The translations under genes were made by a program, and so were the position numbers. Source: Antedon bifida (lineage: Eukaryota > Echinodermata > Crinoidea > Comatulida > Antedonidae). From it: DNA of 64,000 nucleotides. This document shows, piece after piece, positions 16,574-53,996 of the stretch. Under the pieces are notes generated by a model, which saw only the letters and a list, made by a program, of their open reading frames with translations, searched no databases and was not told the DNA's origin. Position 1 is the first letter of the stretch; every line of letters starts with the position of its first letter. Location of the stretch: NCBI GenBank assembly GCA_963402885.1, contig OY727097.1, forward strand, positions 29,629,401 through 29,693,400. Direction: 5' to 3'.

Positions 16574-19500
16574 ATGGGTCAAACATTGTCAGAGCCGGTA
16601 ACGGTTAAGGAAACATCGTCTTGTGAAAATAGTTTTTTTAAAGTTGGATCATCCTGTATGCAGGGATGGCGTATCAGTATCCTTGTTGTTTGAATGAAAT
16701 TAGTATTTGTTATTATATTATTATTATTATATTACTTACAGTTAGAACCCCAAGAGTACACATTCGGGATCAATCAAAATGTCCCTTGATGCTTGGTTCA
16801 CACTAGAACATAATGCAAGCGTGTTGACCAATGACAAGTGACAGTTTGAATAATCTATCACTTGTGATTGGTCAAATTAATTGCATTGCGCTTTCACTCT
16901 TGCATGGTGTCTTAGTGGGAACCAAGCATTAATTTAAATCTGGACAGAGGTCGGCCTTAGTGTTAAAAACCTATTCTGTATTTCCCCTTGTTCAGTTCAT
17001 AAGAAAAGTTCCCCCAGGGTGTTCCCCCAGGGTGTCCCCCCACACCCTGAATATAAGTGCCCCATAGTGTTTATCAATCATGATATGTTTGTATAACTTT
17101 AACAATTCATTTATTTTTATTTTGCTATGTCATCCATATAGATAGGCCATAGATTTGAAAATACAGCAAATCTAAATTCTTAAATTTAAGATAGTAAATA
17201 ATATAATCTAACCTTGAAAAAAAATATATCAATTTAATATTATTTTGACATACCCATCAAGATGTCGGCAACAACTGTGATAATGAAACCTACTGTCATT
17301 GATGGCATCTTCAGAAGCTATTTATAGACACTCATAGTTCAACAGATAATTAAATATTGCCGTGTGTGTACAGTTCTAGGGATGCCTCTTATAGGTCAAA
17401 GGTCAATTCATTTGTCGTTGATCAAGTGTTGTGTTTTCATTGATGATTTTTCTTGCGTGTATGTTTGATGGCTCAGCTGTGGGTGCTCACTAATTTAATT
17501 TGTTTGATATATTTTGACCTAATGTTCATTTTAAAGTAAACGTGGGTTGTGATGCCTTCCTAAAATAAACATGTCATCAACTGTATTAATAGACAAATTA
17601 ATGTAAAATTAGCAGTTATTAATATATTATTAAAATATTTTGGATTATTTTTTAATAAACTATATTAATGTATATATATAAATATAAGAAAATTAATGAA
17701 AAAAGGAGTAATACGGAATTCATATATGTAAAAATGTTACTTATGAATTGTAACGACATTTACAAGTTAAATAATACGATTTTTATGTAATATGAGATAA
17801 TATGAATGTGAATAAAAGTGGTGTTTGCGCCACAAAAGAGAAAAAAAAACTATATTAATGTAAAATTTTACAGTTATACAGTGTTTTGAAAGTTATGCAA
17901 ATACGTATTTCATTTTTCAAGGAAAATGACTTTGGTTTCTGGAAAAGTGTTGTAAATATTGAAAAAAAAAGAAGAAATTTTCACATACATTGTTTTTTAA
18001 AAAGGGTTCTGAATTTTGTTAACTTGTATGCGAAATTGGTTTTTAGAAATTTACATTTATGCTTTTTGGGAAGGTTATTTATATTGTTTTCACTCATCAA
18101 AGTGTATGAAATAAATATTTCCTTCACTGAGCTATTTTTACTAGATATGGAAGATGCCCACACACAGCTACTCTCTCTTGGTGACTCAGAAGGCACCGCA
18201 TTCTTTGCAGTGTACGATGGCCATGGGGGTAAGTAGAAACAAGGGGTGGGGTAAAACTAAAAAGGTATTGTACAACTGGAGGCTCAGCTCATAGCTCAAA
18301 AAGCATTAGAGAGGGACCAGACATTTGGATGGCTCCATCTTCAATTGGCCAATCAGAAGTCGTGCTCACTACTCAGCCTTACACTAAGACAGTTGCCACC
18401 AAATTATTATCCATTATTTGATTTTAAATATAATTCTATAAAAAAAATGTGTTTTATAAATTGTAGTAATATTTTGGCCATGAGAAAATAAAAATTTAGT
18501 GTGACCATGGATGAATAATTCCTCCATGGTATGACTAAGTCATGATGTGAACCCAAGACCCTGTGATTAGTAAGCAAGTCCACCACTAAGTAAAACAATG
18601 GCTAGATGTTTTGAATCCCTAAATTACTGGATATTAAATGTTCAAATTGTGGCTAATTATTTTATGTAAGTTCACATTTATTTAGCAAAAGCATTGATTT
18701 TACAAAATAAAAAAAAGCGTTGCCTGTAATTGTAAAACCCTTAACAAAGAAGACAAAAGTAAAAGGTTTTGGGTAGTGCTAAAAGAAACCTTTTCGAGAA
18801 CCAGGCAAGAAAAAAAAAATAGTTAAAAAAAATGTATTCATTCACGACAAATCAAAACATTTGAAATAGTCTTCTGACTAATAATAGTTTTCTATTTTAC
18901 CTCCTCAACCATTTTAGGAAATCAGACGAAAAAAATAAAAATCTCTACATTAATATAGTAGGGACTAATATAGTTCTTTTATGAGACTAATAGTTCCTTC
19001 ATGATTTTATTGCACCTTCTCGGCCACAATGTACCGGTGTTGCAGGGGGTGTGTGTTTGTATCTATTTGATCGACTGTTTATCTTGTCTAACAAAAGAAC
19101 ATCATACAATTGATGATTAATTGTAAAGTAAGCGGGGTCAAAGGTTAAATTGTAGTTGATAATAGACAGTACCAATATAAATTTAATGTTAGGTTTTATT
19201 GATAATAATCTGGGTCATTGGTCAAGAATTGAGGGGAGATGTGAGAGAGAAGATGGCTTTCCAACTTTTCGTAGAATAATCCACAAAATATTATATGAAG
19301 CATCATTGATGTTCTTTTTTTTGCTTCTCTAATCCCTAATTTGATTAGTTTTTTTTTTATATAACTTTTTAAAAGGTGTATCTTTGTCAGAAGGTGTTGA
19401 AGGGGACCCCTCAGGATGTATCCTCTTTTGGGAGATTTAGATTTAGAACGTTTTTCGTTTGGTTTGGTTGGTGTTTTTTTTCTTGTATTGGTATCAAACT

Positions 19501-26499: not shown

Positions 26500-26661
26500 A
26501 TCTACAATATCAAACTTTATGTGACAAAAAAAAGTGATGTGCCCATATATGGACATGATGATGTCATATCACTACCATATTTGGGCACATCACTACCATA
26601 TTTGGGCACATCACTACCATATTTGGGCACACTTTTTTTGTCAAACTAGTTTGTTAGAGCT
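26500..26661. mobile_element. MITE family A, copy 8
   Basis: Carries three consecutive copies of a 20-bp word like ATCACTACCATATTTGGGCA, more than in other copies. The ends are eroded (TCTACAATATCAAACTTTAT at the left, TCAAACTAGTTTGTTAGAGC at the right). Sits directly next to the right end of the 1.8-kb element. Confidence 0.78.
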
Positions 26662-27734: not shown

Positions 27735-27886
27735 TACATCATTTTTATGTGACAAAAAAAATGTGATGTGCCCATATATGGACATGATGATGTCATATCA
27801 CTACCATATATGGGTATATCACTACCATATTTGGGCACATCACACTTTTTTTGTTAAAGCTAGTTTGATAGTGTAGACAGAGCTTA
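27735..27886. mobile_element. MITE family A, copy 9
   Basis: Left end reduced to TTTTATGTGACAAAAAAAATG. The interior has two CACTACCATAT words. The right end GATAGTGTAGACAGAGCTT is intact. Confidence 0.78.
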
Positions 27887-33162: not shown

Positions 33163-36100
33163 CCATAGTACAGGGATTTTTTCGAAAAAAAATAGACAAT
33201 ATATATATATATATATTTTTTTAATATGTTGAGGTAACATGTGCAGAACACATCATGTGCGTCTGCGCGTGCCAATTTATGATATAGTAATCAGTTATGT
33301 CGAAAAATAAAAATTTCGAAATTTGGGCATTTTTCAAAAAATCCCTGCACTATAGTACAGGGATTTTTTCAAAAATCGCCAAAATATCGACCTTTTAAAA
33401 TTCAATTTTTATGTAATAATATTGCCATATATGCACATATATTGCGTTATCATCATCTTAGAGAGTCATAGTAACCAGTTATATAAAAAAATAAAAAGTT
33501 CGAAATTTGGGCATTTTAGTACAGGGATTTTTTCAAAAATTGCCAAAATATCGACCTTTTAAAATTCAATTTTTATGTAATAATATTGCCATATATGCAC
33601 ATATATTGCGTTATCATCATCTTAGACAGTCATAGTAACCAGTTATATAAAAAAATAAAAAGTTCGAAATTTGGGCATTTTTCGAAAATTTCCCTTTACT
33701 AATAGTACAGGGATTTTTTCAAAAATGGTCAAAATATCGACCTTTTAAAATTCAATTATTATGCAATAATGTTGCCATATATGCACATATATTGTGTTAT
33801 CATCATCTTAGAGAGTCATAGTAACCAGTTATATAAAAAAATAAAAAGGTCGAAATTTGGGCATTTTTCGAAAATTTCCCTTTACTATAGTACAGGGATT
33901 TTTTCAAAAATGGCCAAAATATCGACCTTTTAAAATTCAATTATTATGCAATAATATTGCCATATATGCACATATATTGTGTTATCATCATCTTAGAGAG
34001 TCATAGTAACCAGTTATATAAAAAAATAAAAAGGTCGAAATTTGGGCATTTTTCGAAAATTTCCCTTTACTATAGTACAGGGATTTTTTCAAAAATGGCC
34101 AAAATATCGATCTTTTAAAATTCAATTTTTATGCAATAATATTGCCATATATGCACATTGTGTTACCATCATCTTAGAGGGTCATAGTAACCAGTTATAT
34201 AAAAAAATAAAAAGGTCGAAATTTGGGCATTTTTTGAAAATTTCCCTGTACTATAGTATAGGGATTTTTTCAAAAATGGCCAAAATATCGACCTTTTAAA
34301 ATTCAATTATTATGCAATAATATTGCCATATATGCACATATATTGTGTTATCATCATCTTAGAGAGTCATAGTAACCAGTTATATAAAAAAATAAAAAGG
34401 TCGAAATTTGGGCATTTTTCGAAAATTTCCCTTTACTATAGTACAGGGATTTTTTCAAAAATGGCCAAAATATCGATCTTTTAAAATTCAATTTTTATGC
34501 AATAATATTGCCATATATGCACATTGTGTTACCATCATCTTAGAGGGTCATAGTAACCAGTTATAAAAAAAATAAAAAGATCGAAATTTGGGCATTTTTC
34601 GAAAATTTCCCTTTACTACAGTACAGGGATTTTTTCAAAAATGGTCAAAATATCGACCTTTTAAAATTCAATTATTATGCAATAATATTGCCATATATGC
34701 ACATATATTGTGTTATCATCATCTTAGAGAGTCATAGTAACCAGTTATATAAAAAAATAAAAAGGTCGAAATTTGGGCATTTTCGAAAATTTCGCTGTAC
34801 TATAGTACAGGGATTTTTTTCAAAAATAGCCAAAATATCGACCTTTTAAAATTCAATTATTATGCAATAATATTGCCATATATGCACATATTTTGTGTTA
34901 TCATCATCTTAGAGAGTCATAGTAACCAGTTATATAAAAAAATAAAAAGTTCGAAATTTGGGCATTTTTCGAACATTTTCCTGTACTATAGTACAGGGAT
35001 TTTTTCAAAAATGGCCAAAATATCGACCTTTTAAAATTCAATTTTTATGTAATAATATTGCCATATATGCACATATATTGCGTTATCATCATCTTAGAGA
35101 GTCATAGTAACCAGTTATATAAAAAAATAAAAAGTTCGAAATTTGGGCATTTTTCGAAAATTTCCCTTTTCAAAAATATCGACCTTTTAAAATTCAATTA
35201 TTATGCAATAATATTGCCATATATGCACATATATTGTGTTATCATCATCTTAGAGAGTCATAGTAACCAGTTATATAAAAAAATAAAAAGGTCGAAATTT
35301 GGGCATTTTTCGAAAATTTCCCTGTACTATAGTACATGGATTTTTTTAAAAATGGCCAAAATATCGACCTTTTAAAATTCAATTTGTATGCAATAATATT
35401 GCCATATATGCACATATATTGTGTTGCCATCATCTTAGAAGGTCATAGTAACCAGTTATATAAAAAAATAAAAAGGTCGAAATTTGAGCATTTTTCGAAA
35501 ATTTCCCTGTACTATAGTACTGTACAGGGATTTTTTTCAAAAATGGCCAAAATATCGACCTTTTAAAATTCAATTATTATGCAATAATATTGCCATATAT
35601 GCACATATATTGTGTTATCATCATCTTAGAGAGTCATAGTAACCAGTTATATAAAAAAATAAAAAGGTCGAAATTTGGGCATTTTTCGAAAATTTCCCTG
35701 TACTATAGTATAGGGATTTTTTTTTAAATGGCCAAAATATCGACCTTTTAAAATTCAATTATTATGCAATAATATTGCCATATATGCACATATATTGTGT
35801 TATCATCATCTTAGAGAGTCATAGTAACCAGTTATATAAAAAAATAAAAAGGTCGAAATTTGGGCATTTTTCGAAAATTTCCCTGTACTATTGGCCTAGT
35901 ACAGGGATTTTTTTCAAAAATGCCCAGAATATCGACCTTTTAAAAATCAATTATTATGCAATAATATTGCCATATATGCACATATATTGTGTTTTCATCA
36001 TCTTAGAGAGTCATAGTAACCAGTTATATAAAAAAATAAAAATGTCGAAATTTCGGCATTTTTCGAAAATTTCCCTTTACTATAGTACAGGGATTTTTTC

Positions 36101-36440
36101 AAAAATGGCCAAAATATTCACCTTTTAAAATTCAACTTTTATGCAATAATATTGCCATATATGCACATATATTGTGTTATCATCATCTTAGAGAGTCATA
36201 GTAACCAGTTATATAAAAAAATAAAAGGGTCGAAATTTGGGCATTTTTCGAAAATTTCCCTTTACTATAGTACAGGGATTTTTTCAAAAATGGCCAGAAT
36301 ATCGACCTTTTAAAATTCAATTATTATGCAATAATATTGCCATATATGCACATATATTGCGTTATCATCATCTTAGACAGTCATAGTAACCAGTTATATA
36401 AAAAAATAAAAAGGTCGAAATTTGGGCATTTTTCGAAAAT
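33163..36440. repeat. Satellite array of about 17 palindromic units (period about 184 bp)
   Basis: Each unit begins CAGGGATTTTTTC, passes through AATATCGACCTTTTAAAATT, TTGCCATATATGCACATATA, TCATCATCTTAGAGAGTCAT and AACCAGTTATATAAAAAAAT, and ends AAAAGGTCGAAATTT...TTCGAAAATTTCCCTG. The first and last roughly 40 bases are imperfect inverted repeats, so each unit can fold into a hairpin. Junctions such as CCCTGTACTATAGTACAGGG are themselves palindromic. Starts occur near 33357, 33522, 33711, 33893, 34077, 34258, 34444, 34623, 34807, 34992, 35526, 35713, 35904, 36088 and 36270. One unit near 35168 is shortened, and the first unit (33173) has a different middle. Short ORFs inside are chance readings. 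Confidence 0.92.
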
Positions 36441-36589
36441 TGCCAGAATATCGACCTTTTAAAATTCAAAATTCAATTATTATGCAATAATAATAATTTG
36501 GCCAATTTATTTTATTTTATGTCTTTAGGCAATGTGGCCAAGGATTACCAATAGTGAATTAATCACTGTCCTATCAGATAGGTGGTAAT

Positions 36590-36790
36590 CCCCCTGATAC
36601 AGGGGCTATTTTGTGAACCAGTTCACCGGGGTAACCCCCTACTCTTTTCGAATAATGAACTGGGTTCTTTAAAGTGCACACAGGTTATAACTGTGTACAC
36701 TGGACCTACGGTTTATAGTCCTTATCCGAGAAGACTTGTTCCACCACCAGAACTAGGAGCGAGTCGGCCTCGAACCCTTGCCGATGTTGT
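36590..36790 (-). mobile_element. tRNA-derived SINE (family E), copy 3
   Basis: Reverse-orientation copy. Shared words: GGGGTAACCCCCTACTCTTT, GGTTCTTTAAAGTGCACACA, TACACTGGACCTACGG and CCGAGAAGACTTGTTCCACC. On the minus strand it carries a B-box-like GGGTTCGAGGCC. It lies at the distal end of the satellite array. Confidence 0.78.
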
Positions 36791-36886
36791 TTGTTTGACA
36801 AAATCCCTGTACTTTGGCCTAGTGCATAAAATTGTCAAAAAATAAAAGGGTCGAAATTTGGCCAAAGTAGGCCTATTACATTTTTA

Positions 36887-36922
36887 AAATATGTTGAGGT
36901 AACATACGCAGAACACATTATC
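36887..36922 (+). repeat. Direct repeat of a segment at the start of the satellite array
   Basis: AATATGTTGAGGTAACATAC followed by GCAGAACACAT closely matches 33223-33254 (AATATGTTGAGGTAACATGT, then GCAGAACACAT). The nearby ATCCCTGTAC (36803) and GGGTCGAAATTTGG (36847) are satellite-like. An older element type is therefore found at both ends of the array. Confidence 0.65.
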
Positions 36923-37328: not shown

Positions 37329-37365
37329 CAGGGATCGAGTTGAATTTTTATTTTACAACTCCCTG
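37329..37365. mobile_element. Tiny hairpin element (family F), copy 1, 37 bp
   Basis: Left arm CAGGGATCGAGTTG and right arm CAACTCCCTG are inverse apart from a 3-base insert. The right 16 bases (ATTTTACAACTCCCTG) are identical to the element at 45135-45179. Flanks CATAGGC (37322-37328) and GATAGGC (37366-37372) match at 6 of 7 positions, like a 7-bp target duplication. Confidence 0.65.
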
Positions 37366-44800: not shown

Positions 44801-44976
44801 TCCGTCTGGGGTTAGTTCAAACATGGAGGTATCATCAAATTATCATTTTTTTTACTGAAACCATGTTTTAAGATTAAGAAACATTTTTTGTTTTGTTATT
44901 TAAGCAAGATTGATATGGTAAGTCCGGAGACGTTGTAATTAAGCTTCGTATAGGTGTGGACCACAGCAATTTGTGA
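41861..44976. other. AT-rich non-coding stretch
   Basis: No coding exon or known repeat recognised. Contains a poly-C run of about 17 at 44710-44726, followed by a CT-rich tract. Confidence 0.4.
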
Positions 44977-45134
44977 CGCGTTTTCATCAACTTGTAACGA
45001 ATCTTAGTTGAGAACGCATTACACAACGAATGCATTGCTTATAAACCGTTTGCGAATTGCGTTTAGTATTTATATTAAAACGCGTTTTAATCAACTTGTA
45101 AGAACGAATTTTAGCTGAGAACGCATTACACAAC

Positions 45135-45179
45135 CAGGGAGTTGTAAAATAATAATTATTATTATTTTACAACTCCCTG
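45135..45179. mobile_element. Tiny hairpin element (family F), copy 2, 45 bp perfect palindrome
   Basis: Two 22-base arms (starting CAGGGAGTTGTAAAATAATA) are perfect inverses around a single central T. Flanked by ACACAAC on both sides (45128-45134 and 45180-45186). Confidence 0.8.
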
Positions 45180-45186
45180 ACACAAC

Positions 45187-45234
45187 CAGGGAAGAGTTAA
45201 AATACAGGGAAGAGTTAAATTTAACTCTTCCCTG
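45187..45234. mobile_element. Tiny hairpin element (family F), copy 3, 48 bp
   Basis: Contains a perfect 30-bp palindrome (arms CAGGGAAGAGTTAAA / TTTAACTCTTCCCTG) preceded by an extra partial left arm, CAGGGAAGAGTTAAAATA. Flanked by ACACAAC at 45180-45186 and 45235-45241. Confidence 0.78.
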
Positions 45235-46380
45235 ACACAACGAATGAATTGCTTATAAACCGTTTGCGAATTGCGTTCAGTATTTATATTGAAACGCGTT
45301 TTAAAGCGTGTACACATTTTATTAAAGCGGTTGTCATCCAAACAAATACACACTTGTCGTGGCTAGAGCCACTGCAAATTCATTTTTTAAAACGTGTAAA
45401 TGCACTTGATTATTGCATTGCTCTAGACACGTGTAAGTATATCCAGGCCAGTCTACTTCACATCAAATAAGCACCAGTAGGTATTACAATGATAATCTGA
45501 AGTGTAAGTCTACTCGTCAGTAGTAGAATTAAATTTACAATATCTGAATTATATATGAAATTACGCCCAACCGCCAATTATGATAAATGGGAGATGAGTA
45601 AGCATGGATTGTTAGAACTAGAAATACATACAATAGGTTAACAATTGATTAATGTTACAAGAATACAAAATGAGAAAATAAAGATAATGAATAATTTTAG
45701 TTACACTACTACAGTGCTTTACAACACCGTACTAACCCTATTCTTATATATTGTATGTACCGTATATGAAAAGAATAAATATGGGACGCCAAAGAGAAAA
45801 AAGAAGCACCACGCACTAATGCATACAATTGTACATACTGAACAAATACAAGATGTTAAAGAGAAACATGGTTTCATTATTCTGATACAGTAGGCCTATA
45901 AGAATATGGGCTATTATGAAACACCGCCTTCAGGGCTATTTACACGTTCACACTAGAGACACAGTCACTTCGCTGTCCAAAGTTTAAACAGGCAAGGTTT
46001 ATAAAAGAAGAAATATGTTAATATGTATTTGTTTAAGCAAAGAACGAATGTAAAAAAGGTTACCGTCGGGCAAAAACACAGCGTCCGATCTCATCTCGTT
46101 TTTACGTTTGTTTTGTGCATGCTGCACTTTTCTACGCGCTTGCAAAATTGCAAATTCACGACCGGCATCATTAAAAGACAGTGTAAGTACGTAGACAAAA
46201 ACCAATCGGACTGAGTGGCTGTATAAAATACAGATACTACAATATTGAAATATGCGTGCACGTCGCCGCGTCAAACCCCCTTGGTTTGTGTACGCTGATG
46301 AAAGCACAACGCTTGATTTAGTGTATCGACTCTTGAATTGAGTCTCTGCTGCATAAGTTATTCTTTTATTAATTAAACTT

Positions 46381-53855: not shown

Positions 53856-53996
53856 AGCTCTGTCTACACTATCAAACTTTATATGATGTGATGTGATGTG
53901 CCAAGTTGTGATGTGCCCATAAATGGACATGATAATGCCATATCACTACCATATATGGGCACATCACATTTTTTGTCACATAAAGTTTGACAGAGT
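53856..53996. mobile_element. MITE family A, copy 10
   Basis: Left end AAGCTCTGTCTACACTATCA intact; right end shortened to CATAAAGTTTGACAGAGTT. The interior GATGTGCC word is duplicated. Confidence 0.78.

Follow-up and report, generated by a model that had tools for sequence, protein, structure and literature searches.

Tiny palindromic inserts in a crinoid genome as probable excision footprints of P-superfamily transposons

The pair of tiny hairpins at 45128-45241 of the window (by which we mean the whole stretch of 64,000 nucleotides analysed, C10:29629401-29693400) very probably represents two excision footprints of P-superfamily transposons at a single target. Inserts of this kind recur across the genome of Antedon bifida (315.6 Mb in 27 contigs), and they are most likely the scars of departed P-type elements rather than elements themselves. 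Their anatomy is that of such scars: a target duplication, 15-21 nt of a terminal inverted repeat (TIR), a junction of microhomology or filler, the same end inverted, and the target duplication again. In addition to these inserts, the window holds a fucose pyrophosphorylase ORF and parts of other cellular-type genes.

The double insert in the window

An earlier sequence-only reading of the window described three copies of ACACAAC around two inserts, and this is what the window sequence contains, in the order ACACAAC, 45 bp, ACACAAC, 48 bp, ACACAAC (45128-45241). Both inserts had been called palindromes. The first (45135-45179, 45 bp) is one, with 22-nt arms that pair without a mismatch on either side of one central base. 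The description of the second (45187-45234) has to be amended, as 14 of its 48 positions disagree with the reverse complement of the insert: its palindromic part is perfect but 30 bp long, and 18 nt stand ahead of it, a partial copy of the left end in which 15 of the 18 nt repeat CAGGGAAGAGTTAAA. The features are listed here by window position; none is assigned a strand.

18506..18528, CATGGAG footprint-like insert, flanks GTGTGAC/GTATGAC (7 bp, one mismatch)
37329..37365, further CAGGGA footprint-like insert, flanks CATAGGC/GATAGGC (7 bp, one mismatch)
44976..45079, tandem unit 1 of the 104-bp duplication, unoccupied
45017..45032, uninterrupted target CATTACACAACGAATG, with a single ACACAAC at 45021-45027
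45080..45304, tandem unit 2, split by both inserts, and the start of a partial third unit
45128..45134, target-site duplication copy 1, ACACAAC
45135..45179, putative excision footprint 1, A-type end CAGGGAGTTGTAAAATAAT and its inverted copy, joined via TAATAAT-type sequence
45180..45186, target-site duplication copy 2, ACACAAC, common to both putative footprints
45187..45204, filler-like partial B-type end (CAGGGAAGAGTTAAA + ATA), a direct repeat ahead of the palindrome
45205..45234, core of putative footprint 2, perfect 30-bp palindrome of two 17-nt B-type ends overlapping at AATT
45235..45241, target-site duplication copy 3, ACACAAC

The 104-bp tandem duplication noted in the sequence-only reading is likewise present, with the empty site kept in the first unit, one unit upstream of the inserts (45017-45032). 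When the inserts are taken out, an alignment of the two units spans 115 bases and shows 6 mismatches and a single 3-nt gap. One copy is unoccupied and has a single target, while the occupied copy beside it has three; this is direct evidence of two insertions with target duplication, and the proposal that a 7-bp duplication by insertion took place twice at one target stands. As insert 1 is of A type and insert 2 of B type, two different elements used the same target. At the Drosophila allele singed-weak, two P elements lie at one site. The window has three occurrences of the pattern CAGGGA-N4..34-TCCCTG, where shuffling leads one to expect 0.02, and none of 100 shuffles reaches three.

The locus very probably arose as follows. 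A P-type element would have entered ACACAAC, duplicating the 7 bp, and a second element, with ends of another subfamily, would have entered one of the resulting copies to give three. Both elements would later have been excised. A P-type transposase cuts at the element end on the transferred strand and some 17-20 nt further in on the other, and each flank would then keep the target duplication and a 3' tail formed by the outermost 17-20 nt of the TIR. By end joining, either through microhomology or with templated filler, the two tails would become one short palindrome. What we infer from the scars is that excision took place, in which order it did so and where exactly the cut fell, and also that a P-type transposase moved the CAGGGA families.

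Junctions of the same anatomy are known from Drosophila. There, the cut that P transposase makes in the second strand falls 17 bp into a 31-bp TIR and leaves 17-nt 3' tails (passages of PMC7776569). Excision of P{w-a} in flies without Rad51 leaves two inverted TIR tails between 8-bp duplications, and passages of the report on it assign about 58% of junctions to the classical end-joining type and 29% to microhomology of 5-10 nt, with insertions of more than 3 bp, whose templates could almost always be identified, making up 13% (PMC2895639). The 18-nt partial copy that opens insert 2 looks like templated filler of this sort, and so do the TAATAAT runs of the A-type inserts.

Two other repeats in the window are recorded here. 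Imperfect 48-nt palindromic units (AAAAGGTCGAAATTTGGGCATTTTT...) form a many-copy array at 33300-36900, and a short inverted repeat around GTGATGTGCCCATATATGGACATGAT, possibly of a MITE family, is present in three copies (26533-26594, 27763-27822 and 53907-53968).

CAGGGA inserts and a long element with the same ends

A two-sided search of the genome with CAGGGANNNNTNAAA-N0..30-TTTNANNNNTCCCTG found 281 places, and the reversed-pattern control found none. Flanks were read at 44 of 50 places listed among the 281 (C1 and part of C7; the six unread are exact 34-mers), and since 8 of the 44 repeat the flanks of another site, 36 are independent. The expectation that copies elsewhere would carry matching 7-bp flanks is borne out: 19 of the 36 have exact duplications of 7 bp and 2 have exact duplications of 8 bp, while 10 more have one mismatch (8 of 7 bp and 2 of 8 bp). 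Together this makes 21 exact and 10 with one mismatch; the 5 that are neither comprise 1 of 6 bp and 4 with none. When the left flank of one site was set against the right flank of another, 4 of 1,260 pairings matched exactly and 24 of 1,260 with one mismatch. Among the 19 exact 7-bp duplications, 16 carry T as the second base and 16 carry A as the sixth.

Three types of end can be distinguished, namely A (CAGGGAGTTGTAAAATAAT), B (CAGGGAAGAGTKAAATTACA, in which K is T or G) and C (CAGGGAGATGTAAAAT). Both arms are of the same kind in 28 of the 36 sites (14 T/T, 8 G/G, 5 C/C and 1 A/A), and the remaining 8 are mixed T/G or show point differences. The junctions vary from site to site, giving 32 distinct insert sequences among the 36 sites, and where both arms of a B site are intact (n=15) there are 7 overlap, 1 blunt and 7 filler junctions.

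A second sample comprised 30 loci from a search with one 19-nt B end. A script found a partner end with a duplication of 6-8 bp (at most one mismatch) at 16 of the 30, and inspection by eye, tolerating a letter or two at the end, added five duplications (L024, L026, L029, L031 and L041). Four loci have a partner end and no duplication (L035, L036, L047 and L053, the first two being one place). At the five loci without a partner end (L034, L039, L043, L044 and L048), a partner end with duplication was sought in the 4 kb beyond each, and none was found; in L054 a single 9-mer matches the end with at most one mismatch, but no duplication adjoins it. On C7, at 6243500-6243856, at least eight direct copies of a 19-nt B-type end lie within 360 bp, including two runs of three with a 22-bp period; this cluster may be a small satellite that expanded from a P-type end or from a scar.

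The 30-mer of window insert 2 is the most repeated insert after a 34-mer. It is present at 8 places in the genome, all read and all in different sequence contexts, and 7 of the 8 are directly bordered by their own 7- or 8-bp duplication; in the window copy the 18-nt filler lies between. The sequence is the product expected of two 17-nt B tails annealed at AATT (arms 17/17, overlap 4). The 34-mer was considered as a high-copy element and dropped, as all 6 copies read (5 exact, 1 with a substitution) have the same flanks; from these six it seems to be carried inside a larger repeat, and 6 further exact copies exist.

Long elements with CAGGGA ends were sought with the B end and the continuation common to two footprints, allowing up to two mismatches. 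This gave 26 places, 5 of them exact for the parental next letters ATGGAAAA, and among them a 3,644-bp element at C15:3891919-3895562 that has both B ends, a perfect 33-bp TIR (CAGGGAAGAGTTAAATTACATGGAAAACTCACG) and the 7-bp duplication AGTATAT (52 bases read at each end). Two further inward-facing pairs among the 26 lie 0.56 kb apart on C12 and 1.7 kb apart on C16. Long candidates are therefore few against the scars, with three inward-facing pairs, of which the C15 element alone was read at its ends. The first 19 nt of the B end have 394 matches in the genome, and 98 of these continue AAT; this route to a parent was rejected, as the inward-facing pairs at the 98 places were only tiny palindromes, and the true parental continuation is TTACATGG. 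A search for an A-type parent gave 13 places and no long inward-facing pair.

Against this 33-nt TIR the arms of the inserts are short. Among the arms of 30 B-type sites, 42 are intact as far as nt 15, and all of these end at nt 15-21, the numbers being 2 at nt 15, 3 at nt 16, 11 at nt 17, 9 at nt 18, 4 at nt 19, 10 at nt 20 and 3 at nt 21, although the total-length limit of the search still permitted one arm of up to 33 nt. Outside this set, L044 and L052 are exceptions that keep about 28-30 nt of the parental TIR on one side. The arms thus stop where the inner cut of a longer TIR would lie, with those that reach 20-21 nt going slightly past the 17 of Drosophila.

The C15 element can be placed with the P type by analogy, through its TIR length, its 7-bp duplication, the arm limit and the parallel with the P1 family described below. 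Among the matches listed in genome domain searches for PF21788, PF21787 and PF12017, none lies in its 3,644 bp, and because no P transposase domain was found inside, its link to P transposase is one of anatomy. The element may be non-autonomous, or it may carry a divergent gene.

The first interpretation that we considered was that the inserts are ultrashort MITEs, units of 30-50 bp made of two TIR ends only, which a P-type transposase mobilises in trans with 7-bp duplications. The sequence-only reading, too, had offered mobilisation in trans as one of two possible origins of the hairpins, and had not recognised their family. MITEs resemble the inserts in being short, with inverted ends, a target duplication and no coding capacity. 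The exact 7-bp duplications, the small number of long elements and the very large number of CATGGAG-ended palindromes (1,958 places, see below) would all suit such units, and so would the recurrence of identical inserts at independent sites: three tiny sequences do this among the 36, as a mobile tiny element would also bring about, and besides the 30-mer with its 8 places the other two occur at 2 independent sites each. However, the inserts share little internal sequence between sites, and with 32 distinct sequences at 36 independent sites there is no interior common to many independent copies. Furthermore, a mobile deletion derivative would be expected to retain the whole parental TIR, whereas the TIR in the inserts ends at about 20 nt (nt 15-21 of 33 in B, no more than 19 of 31 in P1). 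The commonest insert, the 34-mer, is without a shown independent insertion, its 6 copies read sharing one flank, and the specific transposase sites that Drosophila P has inward of its 31-bp TIR would be absent from such units (passages of PMC7776569). With its distinct junctions and truncated TIRs against it, we have set this interpretation aside as the main one and consider it quite unlikely.

P elements in the same genome

The genome contains P transposase domains in some number, with at least 41 matches to PF21788, at least 58 to PF21787 and at least 18 to PF12017. One family, P1, is represented by four copies with a common right end and four different flanks. Two copies, of about 5.1 kb, were read from end to end and show a 31-bp TIR (CAAAGATCTTATATACTAAAGATGTGACACT) and duplications of 7 bp (CTATAAT) and 8 bp (GCCTCCCT), and in both the reading frame is split in two pieces. 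In a further copy, L079, read short of its left end, there is an open frame of 758 aa with PF21787, PF21788, PF12017 and PF21789 that matches Drosophila P transposase 6p5a (E 3.2e-44). Judged by its sequence, P1 is a member of the P superfamily, its transposase domains, TIR and 7-8 bp duplications all being those of that group.

If the CAGGGA inserts are excision footprints, P1 should have left tiny palindromes as well, and this had been expected before they were sought. They occur at 24 places in the genome, with none for the control. Of the 20 that were read, 4 repeat the flanks of others (L139 those of L138; L136, inverted, L140 and L143 those of L130). The 16 independent sites comprise 8 with an exact 7-bp duplication, 2 with an exact 8-bp duplication, 4 with one mismatch and 2 with none, and in the 20 the longest arm is no more than 19 nt of the 31-nt TIR. 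A family with an identified transposase gene has left palindromes of like kind, and this counts against the earlier view of the hairpins as inserted elements. P1 provides the same-ended P element with transposase that excision footprints call for, while CAGGGA B has a long element in which no domain was detected.

Could the same anatomy have been reached from the opposite direction? Cut-off ends held by transposase might insert in the manner of tagmentation and their broken inner ends then be joined, which predicts an identical order of duplication, end, junction, inverted end and duplication. Such integration, however, requires pre-cut ends of uniform length, whereas the P1 limit of about 18-19 nt is near the direct prediction of the known staggered cut that leaves tails on the donor flanks, and scars of this type are documented for P excision in passages of PMC2895639; we therefore hold integration of end fragments to be very improbable. 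Finally, replication slippage, template switching or assembly error would sit well with the filler of insert 2 and the TAATAAT runs of A-type inserts, which resemble templated synthesis, and to that extent an aside on template switching in the sequence-only reading agrees with what we find; as an origin for the family as a whole it is already refuted and scarcely credible, in view of the 281 places with like ends, the 7-8 bp duplication that most of the 36 independent sites have as their own, the 3,644-bp element that shares those ends and has a 7-bp duplication, and the unoccupied single-target copy in the window.

Several observations were made near P-type sequences. Near the 5' part of P1, L081 (C1:19359000-19364300) contains two diverged units of a repeat, set 424 bp from each other within P1, and both hold a footprint-like palindrome of CAGGG type. 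In the upstream palindrome the first CAGGG is missing from one side, and GTTATAT stands at both flanks. By arithmetic, a P1-type tiny palindrome at C10:16372569-16372603 falls within about 100 bp of the expected left end of the C10 copy of P1. PF21787 matches with the same score occur at 15 or more places, including L074 and L075, which are 99.7% identical over 4 kb and encode PF21787 and a weak zf-AD match; from their predicted products they would be a P-related transposase outside the classical P layout. A CAGGGA terminus was sought in the P-like copies L074/L075, L076, L077 and L083/L084, and none occurs in the stretches read.

Known scars and the CATGGAG palindromes

Footprints of this kind are known from Drosophila, and the closest likeness is to those of the P element, with the same order of duplication, tail, junction and inverted tail and with tails set by a long staggered cut (passages of PMC2895639). 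The scars described there, however, come from laboratory lines and have 8-bp duplications and 17-nt tails, whereas those described here are natural and accumulated, with duplications mostly of 7 bp and tails of up to 18-21 nt; moreover, as far as those passages of the P{w-a} report extend, two scars at one target are found only here. Galileo, also of the P superfamily, resembles the present system in its duplications, mostly of 7 bp and some of 8 bp, whose consensus GTANTAC is similar to the NTNNNAY seen here (passages of PMC4168063), but it has long, internally repetitive TIRs in place of the 31-33 bp TIRs of this genome. Similarly, Pdre2/THAP9 of zebrafish is a P-type element of a non-insect animal whose termini start with CA and end with TG, but its TIRs are of 13 bp and its duplications of 8 bp, and excision footprints are not described in those passages (passages of PMC10983969).

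A search by title and abstract opening, a weak one in that subscription journals are largely uncovered, found no report of P-type footprints accumulating across a genome. Thus, as far as our searches show, what is new is the mass accumulation, the duplication length of 7 bp and the presence of two scars at a single target. If the excision reading is right, abundant tiny palindromic repeats can be the leavings of transposons and not transposons, and the genome would preserve, as a natural archive, how the germline mended double-strand breaks of a single defined kind, with known ends and known target duplications. That archive would number about 300 CAGGGA and P1 junctions, and possibly about 2,000 CATGGAG junctions. 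Potentially, the inner cut of non-insect P elements could be read in this way from genome data alone, excision bursts could be dated, and annotations that call scars MITEs could be corrected.

The CATGGAG inserts came from a scan over 303,705 bases of partly overlapping loci, mostly chosen for a CAGGGA end. When short inverted repeats were required to have CA/TG ends and a 7-8 bp duplication made up of at least three letters, there were 14 hits, against 0 in ten shuffles of the window; 12 are of the CAGGGA kind at places chosen for it, and 2, in flanks, begin with CATGGAG. In the genome, CATGGAG-N4..34-CTCCATG occurs at 1,958 places against 11 for the reversed pattern. Five of these inserts were seen with their flanks (2 with an exact 7-bp duplication, 1 with one mismatch and 2 with none) and no parent was seen; provisionally, the family can be regarded as the same kind of scar. 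Were scars to become transposons again, with a P-type transposase moving units of 22-50 bp made of two truncated ends, the 1,958 CATGGAG palindromes would be the most numerous such family; we consider this unlikely.

When the CA/TG condition was dropped, there were 25 hits, and 18, 5 and 4 when the duplication was shifted by 5, 10 and 20 bases. Of the 18 hits at shift 5, 13 are footprint inserts that the scan entered at a point further inside, while the other 5 fall in an internal array of L077. That array also accounts for 3 of the 5 hits at shift 10 and for all 4 at shift 20. At L077:3334-3849, AT-rich palindromic units (GAATTACTAATTCGTTTGAAC) are arrayed downstream of a P transposase ORF.
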